This document shows positions 914 through 33,501 of a stretch of DNA of 64,000 nucleotides, piece after piece. Location: NCBI GenBank assembly GCA_947166625.1, contig CAMVEX010000009.1:1-64000 (forward strand), written 5' to 3'. The DNA is from an uncultured Clostridia bacterium. GTDB lineage: Bacteria > Bacillota > Clostridia > Oscillospirales > Acutalibacteraceae. The translations under genes were made by a program, and so were the position numbers. A model generated the notes under the pieces. The model ran no database searches and had not been told where the DNA came from. It saw only the letters and a list, made by a program, of their open reading frames with translations. Every line of letters starts with the position of its first letter. Positions within the stretch are counted from its first letter, which is position 1.

Positions 914-1678
914 ATGAATAATAAAAACATAGACAGCGGCAGGAGCTTTGATTTCGGCAAAACGGCGCAGGCATATTCTCTTTACAGAGATATTTATCCC
1001 GATGAGCTTTACAATAAGCTAAGAGAGCGCGGAGTTGCCGCCGACGGCACTTCGTGGCTCGATCTCGGCACCGGCACCGGAGTTTTGCCCTCAAATCTCT
1101 ATAATCCCAAAGCGAGAATCACCGGCGTTGATATTTCGCAGGAGCAGATTTCTTTCGCAAGGTCTGCCGCTTTGAAAAACAATATGAATATAAATTATTC
1201 GGTATCTCCTGCGGAAGAGACGGGGCTTCCCGATGATGCCTTTGATGTGATTACGGCAGCCCAGTGCTTTTGGTATTTCGACCGGGAAAAAATGCGCTTC
1301 GAAATCAGCAGGATGATAAAGCCGGGCGGTATGTTCATCAAGATTTTTATGAACTGGGATTTTGATGATCCCATCGCTTCAAAAAGCATTATGCTTGTCA
1401 AAAAACACAATCCGCTTTGGTCGAGCGGAAGAAATGCGGATGCCGATATGTATGATGATATTTTCCCGCACCGTCATACGGAAGTTTTTCGTGCGGAGAT
1501 TCCGTTTACCCGTGAAAGCTGGCACGGCAGGATGTGCGCCTGCCGGGGTACTCTCGCCTCCATGGATGAAGCGGCATTCAATGCCTGGGAGGCGGAGCAT
1601 ATAAGCTTTGTGAATACCTGCCCCGATGAATTCAAGGTTTCTCACGATGTTTATATTTCATACTTCATCATTGAATAA
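914..1678 (+). CDS. Class I SAM-dependent methyltransferase
   Basis: The protein (254 residues from the chosen start) carries the SAM-binding motif I 'WLDLGTGTG' at about residues 48-56, an acidic 'VDIS' strand after it, and the post-motif segment 'MIKPGGMF'. This is the UbiE/COQ5-like Rossmann methyltransferase pattern; the acceptor is unknown. The ORF track starts at 809, but AGGAG sits 6 bases before the ATG at 914 and the upstream 35 residues do not look like coding sequence. It converges on fhs, with a bidirectional terminator between them. Confidence 0.85.
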   Translation: MNNKNIDSGRSFDFGKTAQAYSLYRDIYPDELYNKLRERGVAADGTSWLDLGTGTGVLPSNLYNPKARITGVDISQEQISFARSAALKNNMNINYSVSPAEETGLPDDAFDVITAAQCFWYFDREKMRFEISRMIKPGGMFIKIFMNWDFDDPIASKSIMLVKKHNPLWSSGRNADADMYDDIFPHRHTEVFRAEIPFTRESWHGRMCACRGTLASMDEAAFNAWEAEHISFVNTCPDEFKVSHDVYISYFIIE

Positions 1679-13935: not shown

Positions 13936-13973
13936 AAAAAGGTGCACTTGCTCCGTAAAAAAGTAAGTGCGCC
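13936..13973 (-). terminator. Riboswitch-controlled terminator upstream of purE
   Basis: On the minus-strand transcript GG-c-GCACTT pairs with AAGTGC-a-CC, followed by TTTTTATTATTT just before the purE ribosome binding site. The 5' strand overlaps the last bases of the conserved CUGGGC of the ZTP aptamer. Aptamer folding and termination should therefore exclude each other, which fits an on-switch. Confidence 0.85.
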
Positions 13974-14043
13974 CAGACGGTCGGCTTGATGATCCGCGGC
14001 TTCACAGTGGTGCTCCACTTATTCCGTCAGTCACCGCAGAACG
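13971..14043 (-). promoter_or_regulatory. ZTP (pfl motif) riboswitch aptamer controlling the pur operon
   Basis: The minus-strand transcript contains GCGG-UGACUGACGG, then the hairpin AGUGG-agca-CCACU, then GUGAAG and a closing CCGC. After a short linker comes the highly conserved GCCGACCGUCUGGGC. This is the two-domain layout and sequence signature of the ZTP riboswitch, which binds ZMP/ZTP, the AICAR derivatives that build up when 10-formyl-THF is short. The targets fit: purE to fhs include both formyl-consuming enzymes and the formyl donor synthetase. Ligand binding would relieve the terminator downstream. Confidence 0.93.
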
Positions 14044-14066
14044 CTATATCTATATCTAGTAATTAA

Positions 14067-28424: not shown

Positions 28425-30875
28425 TTAATGATATTTTATTCTTGTGTTTTTAAATCTGCCGAATAATATGTCGATGATTCGTTGAATAAGCTGAGCAAGA
28501 GTTATTGTTTTTGATCCCTGAATTGTTTCCAGCTCGCTTTTAATTTCACCGCATTTTGAACAATATGTCCGGTAATATATTGTATTACCGTTGTTGTTTT
28601 CCGTGCTTTTTGTCACAAAATTGTGGCCGGTGGGGTTAATTCTGTATTGTTGCTTAATGATTTGATTGCATACTGTGCAGTGGCTGCCTTCTGTATATCC
28701 GTATTCTGTACATGTCGGCTCCGTTGCATAATCTGTTATCGGCTTATGTCCAAGTGCAGGTATTATCTCCATGTCGCTTATCATATCTCCGCAGGCAGCG
28801 CATGTATAAAATTGCGTCCCTGCTTTTGTGCAGGTTGGTTCATTTCTGATTAAAATCGGGTCATGTCCGTTTGCATATAATATTTCTTTTTGAGTATGAC
28901 CGCAATTATAACAACAGTAAACATTATATCCGCCTTGAGTGCAGGTCGGCTCTTTGTATTCTTTTACATAGTAGTCATGCCCTGTAGCCTCATATGTTTC
29001 CGTGTAAGTGTCATTACAGTGTGTACATGTGTAAATACAGTAGCCGTCCGTTGTGCAGGTGCTTGGGTAATATTCTTCCGTATAGTCATGCCCTGTAGCC
29101 TCGTATGTTTCCGTGTAAGTGTCATTACAGTGTGTACATGTGTAAATACAGTAGCCGTCCGTTGTGCAGGTGCTTGGGTAATATTCTTCCGTATAGTCAT
29201 GCCCTGTAGCCTCGTATGTTTCCGTGTAACTGTCATTACAGCGTGTACATGTGTAAATACTGTAACCGTCCGTTGTGCAGGCGCTTGGGTAATATTCTTC
29301 CGTATAGTTATGACCTAAAGCCGGATAAACAACAGGTTCCACTATATATTCAATCGGATCTGTGTCAGACCAGTAGACATATTCTGAAAAACCTGTTTCT
29401 GTGCAAGTGGGTTCCACCGAACTCGTTTCAATTGGATAATGCTTTTTTGCATCAATTATTGGTTCGTTTGATTTTGCAATTGTTATTTCACGCCACTCGT
29501 TCTCTGAGCCTAAATAATAGACATCTATAAGATATGAACATCTAACAAATGCCCCTAGATTGATACTTGTAACACTTTTGGGTATGATTATACTTGTCAG
29601 TCTGGTACAATTGTAGAATGCAGATTTTCCGATACTTGTGACACCGTTGGGTATTGTGATACTTGCCAGTCCGGTACAACCGGAGAAAGTATCTCTTGCG
29701 ATGCTTGTGACACTGTCAGGTATCGTAATACTTGTCAGTCCGGTACAACCGGAGAATGCATATTCTCCGATGCCTGTGACACTGCCGGGTATCATAATAC
29801 TTGTCAGCCCGGTACAATCGGAGAATGCATATTCTCCGATGCTTGTGACACCGCTTAGTATCGTAATACTTGTCAGTCCGGTACAACCGGAGAATGCACC
29901 CCGTCCTATGCTTGTAACACTGTCTGGTATCGTAATACTCGTCAGTCCGGTACAATCGGAGAATGCACGCTGTCCTATGCTTGTAACACTGTCTGGTATC
30001 GTAATACTTGTCAGCCCGGTACAACCGTAGAATGCACCCTGTCCTATGCTTGTAACACTGTCTGGTATCGTCATATTTGTAAGTCCGGTACAACCGGAGA
30101 ATGCATAATCCCCGATATACTTGACACTACCGTCTGTTGGAATAATACTGTTTTTACATCCGGTAATCAGTGCTTTGCCTTCCGTTGCAATCATACAATT
30201 TCCTGCGCTATGGTATTTCGGGTTGCCTGATTCAACTGTGATGTTTTCTAATCCGGTACAACCGGAGAATGCACTACTGCTTATACTTGTAACACTGCTA
30301 GGAATCGTAATACTTGTCAGTCCGGTACAACCGTAGAATGCATATTCTCCTATACTTGTGACACTTTCGTGTATCGTGATACTTGTGAGTTCGGTATGAT
30401 CGGAGAATGCACGATTACCGATATTCTTGACGCTACCATCTGTTGGAATGATGCTGTTTTTACATCCGGTAATCAGTATTTTGTCTTCCGTCGCAATCAG
30501 ACAGTTTCCTGCACTATGGTATATAGGATTACCTGCTTCAACTGTGATGTTTTCTAATCCGGTACAACCGGAGAATGCACACTGTCCTATGCTTGTAACA
30601 CTGTCGGGTATCGTAATACTTGTCAGCCCGGTACAATTGGAGAATGCACACTGTCCTATGCTTGTAATCGGTTCACCGTAAATCTCAGACGGAATTTCCA
30701 ATGCACCGGTTGCAGAATTTGTGTAACCAACTACGGTGACATAATTATCGGAAACTTCATACTTCAAGACGCCGTCGCTTATTGCTCTAATAGCAAAACA
30801 AGTTACATATGTTGTAATGACAATAAAGACAATTACTATAATACCGATCACTCTTTTTGCTAATCTCAGTTTCAT
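28425..30875 (-). CDS. BspA-like leucine-rich repeat surface protein with Cys-rich tandem repeats
   Basis: The 816-residue protein begins with a signal anchor ('[16 protein letters not shown]'). About fourteen LRR_5/BspA repeats of 23 residues follow ('[23 protein letters not shown]') up to about residue 460, interrupted twice by a 'GNPxYHSAGNC' insert. Then come six or so Cys-pair repeats of about 37 residues ('[22 protein letters not shown]'), three of them almost identical. Such proteins are exposed on the surface and bind host or matrix ligands; that role is inferred from the family. No LPXTG anchor is seen, so retention would depend on the N-terminal membrane segment. Confidence 0.9.
28964..29330. 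repeat. Near-identical 111-bp tandem repeats in the LRR gene
   Basis: The stretch CCTGTAGCCTCGTATGTTTC recurs with a period of 111 bases, and adjacent copies differ at only a few positions. It encodes the 37-residue Cys-rich units. Low divergence implies recent duplication or gene conversion, so copy number may vary between strains. Confidence 0.85.
29560..30680. repeat. 69-bp coding repeats of the LRR domain
   Basis: Units containing 'CTTGTCAGTCCGGTACAACCGGAGAATGC' (split here only for description) recur about every 69 bases with modest variation. The out-of-frame ORFs of the track in this interval are shadows of these repeats. Confidence 0.85.
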
Positions 30876-30981: not shown

Positions 30982-31365
30982 TTATTGAATCCCTCTGCCT
31001 TTTAGATTCAAAGTAAATTCATGTTTAGCAAAAAATTCAGGAAGATAGCCATTACCAAGACAGTCAGGAACCGCTTGTTGTAAATACTTATTACATTCTT
31101 TTTCAAATTCACAAGTTTTATGCGGAAAAAATTCTGATAAAACTTTCAAGCCATAATTATTTGTATATTTACAACATGGGTTTATAAGAATTAAGTTTAT
31201 TGACTTTGACATATCCCACGCAGTTGAATCATATCTTTCATTAAGGGTTATTGCATTTGAGAGAATGATTGCATTCACCTTGTCATATGCATCACGCATC
31301 AGCGGTTTTCCGTTATTTCTGAACTGACTAACATCAGAGTGTTTGTTAAAAACCCGAATCTTCAT
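30982..31365 (-). pseudogene. 3' half of a split nuclease-like gene
   Basis: This 127-residue frame overlaps the upstream ORF by 20 bases and has no clear ribosome binding site before its ATG. Dropping one T from the TTTTT run at about 31347-31351 joins the two frames as 'NEDSGFNKHSDVSQF', giving a product of about 336 residues. I therefore read it as the C-terminal half of one gene, frameshifted either in the cell or in the assembly. The sequence is AT-rich compared with the neighbours. I do not recognise this half. Confidence 0.55.
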
Positions 31366-31993
31366 TCATAATATAATCCCAGTAATGAATCATTTCTAAA
31401 GAAGTTGTTGAAATCAACAATAAATTGCAAATTGTTTTTGAAGGATCACAAAATTTTTCCTGTGCATTCAATAAACAATCTTTAATTTTGTTATCGGACA
31501 TTTCCTTATGAACAACATCTCCCATTTCTAAAACAGATGCTGATTCCCTCAATTGTTCGACAAAAGCATTCATTGCTGCACAGTTTTCACTTTTATCACC
31601 CGATCTATATGCGAAACTTCCAAACATTTTATCTTTATTGTTTTCCTCATATTTAGGTGATTTAACTTCAAAATTATAGGTAATCCCGCTATAATCTAGG
31701 GAGACATCAACGTTTTTGTTATTTGAGTAATTAACATTTTTTTCTGGAATAAATGCTTTTCTTGTAGATGATAGACAAAAATAAAGCATCAATTCAGCAA
31801 TAGCTTCATTATACTTGAATTTATCAAATTTTGAATTGTCACACAGAAGGTTTTTAATCTTTTCTTCTTTGACAGAATTAATATCTAATAACAATAGTTC
31901 TAATTTTTCTCTATATTCCACATTAGAGCAATTTCTCAGTGGGTTATCAATATTTAATGAATCGATTATTCTTTTAACTGTACATTTTTCCAT
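31346..31993 (-). CDS. Putative PD-(D/E)XK nuclease-like protein, N-terminal part
   Basis: The 215-residue frame contains 'NEAIAELMLYFCL' followed by 'NKNVDVSLDYSGITYNFEVKSPK'. A helix with Glu, then Asp, about ten residues and Glu-x-Lys is the spacing of the PD-(D/E)XK nuclease core. No specific family is recognised, so this is a motif-level inference. It could be a restriction-like or defence nuclease. The stop comes right after a T run, and the frame continues in the next ORF. Low GC and its place between a recombinase remnant and a repeat-rich surface gene suggest acquired DNA. Confidence 0.45.
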   Translation of the reverse strand: MEKCTVKRIIDSLNIDNPLRNCSNVEYREKLELLLLDINSVKEEKIKNLLCDNSKFDKFKYNEAIAELMLYFCLSSTRKAFIPEKNVNYSNNKNVDVSLDYSGITYNFEVKSPKYEENNKDKMFGSFAYRSGDKSENCAAMNAFVEQLRESASVLEMGDVVHKEMSDNKIKDCLLNAQEKFCDPSKTICNLLLISTTSLEMIHYWDYIMNEDSGF

Positions 31994-32292: not shown

Positions 32293-32526
32293 TTATTTAT
32301 TCATAAGCCTGTATTCTCTCAGCCTTCTGTAAAAAGTAGCTTCCGATATACTGCACCGCTGTAAGATTTCTTGCAGCGTGATTTGTTTTTTATCCCACTT
32401 TTTGATGAGAGAGGGGAAATCCGCCGGCAACTGCTTTTCCGGTCTCCCGAACTTTACACCCTTCAGCTTCGCCGCCGCTATGCCCTGAGCTTGCCGCTTT
32501 TTGATAAGTCGTTTCTCCTTCAGCTG
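32293..32526 (-). pseudogene. C-terminal fragment of a serine recombinase (resolvase)
   Basis: The minus-strand frame encodes 'KEKRLIKKRQAQGIAAAKLK', then 'GVKFGRP' and a C-terminal helix-turn-helix ('ITLQEILQRCSISEATFYRR'), ending in a TAA at 32293. This is the tail of a resolvase/invertase-type serine recombinase: the end of the E-helix and the DNA-binding HTH. The catalytic N-terminal domain with its Ser is absent, so it is a dead remnant. The ORF track covers this only in another frame. Confidence 0.8.
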
Positions 32527-32606
32527 CAGATGATAATGAATTTGCCGGAACAGTCCCCAAAATCATTATGACACAGACAATAATAGACATTACTCTTTTT
32601 TTTCAT
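32527..32606 (-). pseudogene. 5' remnant of a secreted-protein gene fused to the recombinase fragment
   Basis: GGAGGG precedes an ATG at 32606. Read directly, ATG-A8-GAG stops after 28 codons. With one A fewer in the run it encodes 'MKKRVMSIIVCVIMILGTVP' and 'ANSLSSAAEG', a classic signal peptide with an Ala-rich cleavage site. After that the DNA runs into the recombinase tail in a different frame. It is the start of an exported protein whose body was replaced, and it carries a full regulatory leader upstream. Confidence 0.65.
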
Positions 32607-32632
32607 AAAAATTACCCTCCATAAAATAAAAA

Positions 32633-32656
32633 GTGCGCAGCCCGTGAGCTACGCAC
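32633..32656 (-). terminator. Leader terminator (attenuator) before the secreted-protein start
   Basis: The transcript reads GTGCGTAGC-tcacgg-GCTGCGCAC-TTTTTATTTT, ending 12 bases before the GGAGGG ribosome binding site. An alternative pairing, GAGCTATG with CGTAGCTC, uses the same 5' strand and would prevent the terminator, as in an attenuator. Confidence 0.7.
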
Positions 32657-32791
32657 GAAAAACGCATAGCTCCGATTGCTGCCACGCAACTTCTGAATAC
32701 TTAGCAATGAGTATATCAAAACAGGAGCATGCATTTTTACCGAGATAAAAACACAGACTCATTGCTAAAAATATTCAGTTACGTGGCAATC
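32657..32791 (-). promoter_or_regulatory. Candidate structured RNA leader with long imperfect hairpin
   Basis: Arms at 32674-32712 and 32757-32791 form a long interrupted stem (GATTGCC.ACG..ACT.GAATA...TTAGCAATGAGT against its complement). Inside is the small hairpin TTTTTA-tctcgg-TAAAAA and the apical sequence TGCATGCTCCTG. Downstream comes CGGAGCTATGCG, able to pair as an antiterminator. The order promoter, structured domain, antiterminator/terminator, ribosome binding site is that of a riboswitch. I cannot match it to any class I know. A MITE at this position is the alternative. Confidence 0.5.
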
Positions 32792-32793
32792 AC

Positions 32794-32823
32794 AGTATAT
32801 CATACTTGTAATACAAATATCAA
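32794..32823 (-). promoter_or_regulatory. Promoter of the structured leader
   Basis: TTGATA and TATACT are 18 bases apart on the minus strand, placing the start of transcription at the beginning of the long hairpin. Confidence 0.6.
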
Positions 32824-32967: not shown

Positions 32968-33501
32968 TTATTCATATTTTGTTCTTTCGCCGCCGATATA
33001 TTTCGGCCTTGTCCTTGCGGCGGTGAGCTTCGCTTTTCCGATAAAATCATTTTTGAGCCTGACGGGTACGGCCACTCTTTTCAGGTGCATTCCGATAAGC
33101 GTTTCGCCTATATCTATCCCGGCGTCAGCCTGTATCTCTTCAACGGTTACGGGATTTTTAAGGTTTTGATAAGTGACAGTAGCGAATGATCCGCCCGCGT
33201 GAGGGTGAGGCACTGCGCAGACCCGCTCCCAGCCGTGTCTTTCGGCGTTTTCGGCTTCCGTAATGATTGCTCTGTTCAGATGTTCGCAGCATTGAGCCGC
33301 GATAAATATTCCTTTTTCATCGGTTATCTCCGATATGCCTCTGTATATTTCAAGGGCGGTTTCAGGGCTCCTCACAGTGCCGATTTTGCCGCCGAGCACC
33401 TCGCTCGTCGAGCAGCCTATCACAAGCGTATCTCCCGCTTTGAGCCCCGCGGCCTCAATAAGCTCCGACGCCGCTTCCTTAGCCTGTTCGTAAATACTCA
33501 T
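32968..33501 (-). CDS. UPF0340 (TIGR01440, YwlG-like) protein
   Basis: The 177-residue protein has the family start 'EAASELIEAAGLKAGDTLVIGCSTSEVLGG' (conserved but of unknown function) and the segment 'FIAAQCCEHLNRAIITE'. This group is found across Firmicutes and has no assigned role that I know. It follows the ECF S component gene by two bases, so it is co-expressed with a vitamin transporter subunit. The start has a suitable AAAGGAGAA upstream. Confidence 0.9.
   Translation of the reverse strand: MSIYEQAKEAASELIEAAGLKAGDTLVIGCSTSEVLGGKIGTVRSPETALEIYRGISEITDEKGIFIAAQCCEHLNRAIITEAENAERHGWERVCAVPHPHAGGSFATVTYQNLKNPVTVEEIQADAGIDIGETLIGMHLKRVAVPVRLKNDFIGKAKLTAARTRPKYIGGERTKYE

Follow-up and report, generated by a model that had tools for sequence, protein, structure and literature searches.

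Leader attenuators and the element in the window

In the antisense-RNA attenuators of Gram-positive plasmids (pT181 and pIP501 type), alternative pairing puts an upstream segment in competition with the terminator's 5′ arm. Ribosome-mediated attenuation and T-box leaders likewise choose between an antiterminator and a terminator, and in systems served by LoaP, a NusG paralogue acting in processive antitermination, a leader hairpin controls read-through of a terminator. Here we describe an element in a 64,000-nt stretch of DNA from an uncultured Clostridia bacterium (contig CAMVEX010000009.1; the window, to which all coordinates refer as a whole), which is probably a transcription attenuator, linked to its promoter and acting in cis, from a new RNA family and built as a five-segment switch. 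With terminator-type riboswitches and orphan candidates (Weinberg/Breaker motifs, Rfam) it has in common a 5′ leader with a conserved structured domain, a mutually exclusive antiterminator and terminator, and a ribosome-binding site (RBS) shortly past the T run; it differs from them in lacking a match in Rfam 15 or an identified ligand, in a promoter locked to the first helix, in a regulon rich in exported proteins, and in its tandem arrays and copy number of up to 16 per genome. Competition for the terminator 5′ arm is also the device of the plasmid attenuators, but the present element is chromosomal and stands ahead of many genes, and no antisense RNA or plasmid context was found for it. The choice between antiterminator and terminator is common to ribosome-mediated attenuation and T-box leaders as well; however, the RNA is predicted to start within the first helix (P1), the second (P2) varies too much to hold a conserved upstream open reading frame (ORF), on which ground ribosome attenuation was rejected, and Rfam gives no T-box match. 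Read-through controlled by a hairpin is as in LoaP systems, whereas of 295 genomes of the order only two have a LoaP above the cut-off.

An earlier note on this DNA had proposed an orphan structured leader with the layout of an attenuator, belonging to no class its author recognised. The proposal is borne out by homologues ahead of exported-protein genes and by covarying columns, and the decisive evidence for a leader is, at the level of sequence, comparative: 246 aligned homologues from 136 genomes with strong covariation. Rfam 15 has nothing over the element in the window at the gathering threshold, and nothing at E values up to 5 in six loci. No published description of the motif was found either, the work of Weinberg 2017 being judged only through the inclusion of its motifs in Rfam 14 (PMC7779021). 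The promoter, antiterminator, terminator, T run and RBS of the note are all present, on the minus strand (the note had named no strand), where the element, its promoter and a signal-peptide start occupy 32823–32570. The parts of this copy, with R1 denoting a covariance model built from 12 seeds, are as follows.

32818–32823, minus strand: −35 hexamer TTGATA, with a spacer of 18 nt to the −10 in this copy
32794–32799, minus strand: extended −10, TG-n-TATACT, 6 nt ahead of the first base of P1
32628–32787, minus strand: complete leader RNA, predicted start site through T run (150 bits against R1)
32772–32787, minus strand: P1 5′ strand GCCACGTAA, lengthened by CTGAATA in this copy
32757–32768, minus strand: P2 5′ strand TTAGCAATGAGT, variable stem (own-versus-foreign arm pairing)
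32745–32756, minus strand: segment 1, 5′ strand of the apical stem P3, CTGTGTTTTTAT (model helix 4)
32725–32740, minus strand: segment 2, P3 3′ strand with unpaired GCUC tail, GTAAAAATGCATGCTC (covariation with segment 3)
32700–32712, minus strand: P2 3′ strand ACTCATTGCTAAG (covariation; own-versus-foreign pairing)
32681–32699, minus strand: P1 3′ strand, ending TTGCGTGGC (helix covariation)
32673–32680, minus strand: conserved joint AGCAATCG (AGCAA in 134 of 246 homologues)
32658–32672, minus strand: segment 3, switching linker GAGCTATGCGTTTTT, complementary to segment 2 or segment 4
32665–32672, minus strand: antiterminator stretch GAGCTATG, seen in the sequence
32646–32656, minus strand: segment 4, terminator 5′ arm GTGCGTAGCTC, doubling as antiterminator partner (terminator scan, complementarity)
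32633–32643, minus strand: segment 5, terminator 3′ arm GGGCTGCGCAC (terminator scan; model helix 5, 99.6% paired)
32623–32632, minus strand: T run TTTTTATTTT (terminator scan)
32615–32620, minus strand: RBS GGAGGG, seen in the sequence
32390–32606, minus strand: degenerate ORF with ATG at 32606, a frameshift at a run of eight A and a signal-peptide frame MSIIVCVIMILGTVPANS from 32590
32299–32530 (approximate limits), minus strand: resolvase/recombinase C-terminal tail with helix-turn-helix (HTH), in another frame (Pfam matches below cut-offs)

The promoter is of the sigma-A type (TTGATA/TATACT with TG extension, 32823–32794), the predicted RNA starts at 32787 and the leader is ∼160 bases long. 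The long imperfect hairpin reported earlier (32787–32681) exists and its fold is beyond chance (z −4.3; 0 of 200 shuffles were equally good, with folding done on the plus strand), although it is not one pair of arms but three stacked helices, P1, P2 and P3, with a large 3′ bulge. The terminator scan detected the terminator at 32656–32633 together with its T run, so that an intrinsic terminator sits between the promoter and the start codon.

Covariation and the proposed switch

The check for covarying pairs that the earlier note had suggested gave a clear answer. In 110 aligned copies the core helices are 97.0% paired, with two-sided changes in 31 of 38 pairs and 555 double-change cells against 147 in shuffles, figures from an alignment fitted to the model structure, which favours that structure. 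Covariation of P1, which is 98.9% paired with two-sided changes in eight of nine pairs, is also present on an unfitted MAFFT alignment. P2 is the most variable stem, yet in 98.7% of comparisons (0.987) its arms pair better with each other than with arms from other copies. A conserved, aptamer-like structured domain, with covarying P1, P2 and P3 and conserved joints, is thus present. Across the A3, A5 and A6 alignments the type of P1 tracks the joint, GCCAA stems occurring with GACA (29 copies) and GCGAC stems mostly with AGCA (95 copies); this association could reflect either subfamilies or a tertiary contact.

Two strands are complementary to the linker GAGCUAUGCGUUUUU, namely the terminator 5′ arm and the 3′ strand of P3; the second of these, the apical strand GUAAAAAUGCAUGCUC, can form pairs not only with its 5′ partner but also, with one bulge, with the linker. 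The 2:3 pairing (named, as below, by its segments) is formed in 95.3% of cells, and its covariation score was reached by 0 of 500 shuffles; in 20 sequences, for example, G-C is replaced by A-U. The 3:4 pairing between linker and terminator 5′ arm is formed in 92.8% of cells. When strands of the same copy were compared with foreign strands over the 246 copies, the own strands were better in fractions of 0.82 (1:2), 0.80 (2:3), 0.64 (3:4) and 0.76 (4:5), and three control strand combinations gave 0.49–0.51; hence, relatedness does not account for the pairing signal.

These pairings suggest the following order of events. Transcription would start at the first base of P1, and P1, P2 and the apical stem P3 (1:2) would fold first, after which the linker would select its partner. 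In the read-through state (1:2 with 3:4) the linker would lie on the emerging terminator 5′ arm and block the terminator, and in the termination state (2:3 with 4:5) it would lie on the P3 3′ strand and let the terminator form. The unpaired GCUC tail could serve as a toehold for the 2:3 helix, which would oust segment 1, and a factor that favours or blocks 2:3 would set the choice between the states. The comparisons show the family, its covarying helices, a linker complementary to two strands and a fixed geometry of promoter and gene; the order of folding, an intramolecular 2:3 pairing and the state favoured by the signal are inferred. Mean predicted energies are −13.5 (1:2), −15.3 (2:3), −13.3 (3:4) and −16.4 kcal/mol (4:5). 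In transcripts ending ahead of the terminator 3′ arm the antiterminator is folded in 99% of copies, and in full-length transcripts the terminator is folded in 52%; the two states are therefore close in predicted energy. The same two figures suggest that, in the predicted folds, the antiterminator forms first and termination needs the apical strand to take up the linker. The dual complementarity of this linker makes the logic of the switch directly testable with few mutants.

Several points weigh against the attenuator. With P1 and P2 intact, 2:3 is a long-range pseudoknot that requires a sharp bend, and nested folding never predicted this helix, which therefore rests on covariation. An antiterminator alternative using the terminator arm is present, but on alignment A3 covariation of 3:4 is not above shuffles (201 of 500). 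For about one-third of copies (tandem units and stranded copies) no gene was detected in the next 60 nt, and the switching is a prediction from sequence and folding.

Geometry, distribution and genes controlled

By sequence comparison, the promoter is locked to the RNA element 6 nt before the first helix: of 244 homologues, the gap between −10 and P1 is 6 nt in 231, the promoter spacer is 17 nt in 220, and 233 have the TG extension. An RBS-led ORF on the same strand follows within 60 nt in 151 of 233 testable copies, compared with 3 of 233 in reverse orientation and 47 of 589 random positions. From terminator to start codon the median distance is 21 nt. This geometry bears on whether the unit is a small RNA in its own right that stops at the terminator, or a 5′-terminal stem-loop that mainly stabilises mRNA. 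A unit complete from promoter to terminator, arrays in which every tandem unit has its own promoter and a stem beginning at the predicted 5′ end would suit such roles, but where an RBS-led gene follows (65% of copies) its start codon mostly keeps a fixed distance of 18–30 nt, and the conserved alternative pairing of the linker would be purposeless in a plain small RNA or stabiliser, which makes this explanation unlikely.

The earlier note had held that the element would be a miniature inverted-repeat transposable element (MITE) if homologues conserved at both ends turned up at unrelated sites; on this rival view a mobile element would merely happen to carry a promoter and terminator. Such homologues were found, near-identical RNAs (91–99%) lying in unrelated flanks with sharp ends. 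Moreover, the gene upstream of the window copy (32968–33501) is kept in 27 other genomes of the genus, and no element was near it in any of these 27 loci (fetched 1.5-kb flanks); absence from the site in 27 of 27 would fit mobility, and it marks the window copy as an addition specific to its lineage. However, between unrelated genes the similarity begins at the predicted start site and ends at the T run, the orientation to the next gene is strict (151 forward versus 3 reverse), the helices covary, and the exact 20-mer core is unmatched in viral contigs. With such ends, orientation and covariation a regulatory unit fits far better, and a MITE, rejected on orientation and covariation, is very improbable.

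The element is, from these alignments and searches, a member of a large, previously undescribed RNA family. The source genome holds seven copies: the window copy, five more found by DNA search and a seventh found by the covariance model. One of them lies just past the window (64613–64775 of the contig, minus strand), with no gene directly after it and an exported gene starting ∼500 nt further on. On another contig of this genome, C24, a Gut-1 RNA (RF01706, 70.2 bits; locus L002, 1159–1235, plus strand) and a weaker, inverted second Gut-1 copy (36.5 bits; 1253–1337, minus strand) lie a short way upstream of an element copy. The exact 20-base core retrieved complete elements in 23 records of Clostridia, Oscillospiraceae and Ruminococcaceae, plus three chance matches. 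R1 matched in 26 of 45 genomes of the genus, in 146 of 398 genomes of the family (59 of 135 genera) and in 97 of 295 genomes of the order (58 genera, 18 families); among 349 genomes drawn from the phylum it matched the source genome alone, and the family therefore appears to be confined to one order of Clostridia. About one-third of the genomes sampled from a major gut order thus carry a regulatory RNA, often in many copies, that would be new to Rfam and to the literature searched. The plasmid collection gave no match, and the phage collection gave two unannotated faecal ‘Bacteriophage sp.’ records (MT837627.1 and MT835845.1; 70–77% identical), which may be bacterial contigs because no viral contig holds the exact 20-mer.

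Homologues were also expected ahead of exported-protein genes, and 87 of the 151 downstream ORFs (58%) have signal-peptide-like starts when judged by a crude hydropathy test; for background ORFs of these loci the figure is 28%. The 89 downstream proteins include 29 BspA-type leucine-rich repeat (LRR) proteins (LRR_5), six DUF6273, five CHAP and five double zinc ribbon proteins, HTH families, and single cases of LytTR, PIN7, bPH_1, an EcoRI-type methylase and others. The genes controlled are thus mostly those of exported BspA-type LRR proteins, within a set of surface and accessory genes, and one RNA switch would be shared by surface proteins that are probably in contact with the host and with other microbes. 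Identifying its signal would reveal what these largely uncultured bacteria sense ahead of a change of surface.

As to what operates the attenuator, the sensing of a metabolite or ion is a weaker part of the earlier note's reading. A strict riboswitch, in which a small molecule or ion binds the joint AGCAA, the P3 3′ bulge and GAATA and sets 2:3 directly, is plausible and is put forward tentatively. Conserved unpaired nucleotides between covarying helices, a terminator as expression platform and a single RNA class ahead of many genes are what it would predict, but the controlled genes share no pathway and hence suggest no ligand. Endogenous cyclic di-GMP is unlikely as the common ligand, since no GGDEF protein occurs in 23 of 35 genomes from a set mostly rich in the element; one of the 23 has 16 element copies and 100% completeness. 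Recognition of the hairpin by a trans-acting RNA-binding protein or small RNA is possible, if somewhat doubtful. It would suit a long hairpin from +1, a regulon made up of surface and accessory genes, the high copy number and the recurrence of P2 stem types ahead of unrelated genes in different genomes; however, the genes beside the element include no recurrent regulator, inspection of the alignments by eye showed no antisense promoter, and LoaP is an unlikely factor, neither of the two genomes above its cut-off being listed with the element.

P2 types recur before unrelated genes in different genomes, one of them in 12 genomes. Neighbouring or duplicated units with 92–98% identical flanks can carry unrelated P2 stems, and in tandem arrays of 2–4 promoter-to-terminator units (L127, L128, L129, L130 and L261) the spacers are similar and the P2 stems differ. 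Such stems might act as addresses, each copy in a genome having a type of its own and type-specific trans factors or the avoidance of cross-pairing between copies driving rapid stem exchange, although we consider this improbable; if true, the family would supply surface proteins with RNA switches that are modular and can be addressed one by one. If the spacers of tandem units have been homogenised, part of the mismatch between flanks and P2 could follow from that; this weakens the case for diversification within a genome by selection, as does an identical pair of units in one genome that duplicate removal had hidden.

Downstream remnant and neighbouring features

The earlier note had placed the start of a signal peptide after the RBS and supposed that the gene once controlled was replaced by a recombinase tail. 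The signal-peptide-like frame MSIIVCVIMILGTVPANS is there from 32590, but ATG 32606 is out of frame with it owing to the run of eight A. As read from the sequence, the window copy now stands before a signal peptide that is frameshifted and joined to a resolvase-like tail, whose matches (HTH_23, E 0.0025; HTH_7 of resolvases, E 0.008) are both below Pfam cut-offs. Loss of the gene originally controlled fits this frameshift and fused tail and is to that extent supported; the replaced gene itself is putative.

Beside the recombinase remnant, 30982–31993 (minus strand) holds two overlapping ORFs of 215 and 127 aa without Pfam matches. An 816-aa BspA-type LRR protein is encoded at 28425–30875 (minus strand), with no element detected directly ahead of it, unlike many of its relatives elsewhere. 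The window also contains a ZMP/ZTP riboswitch at 13964–14044 on the minus strand (RF01750, 59.8 bits, above the gathering threshold).
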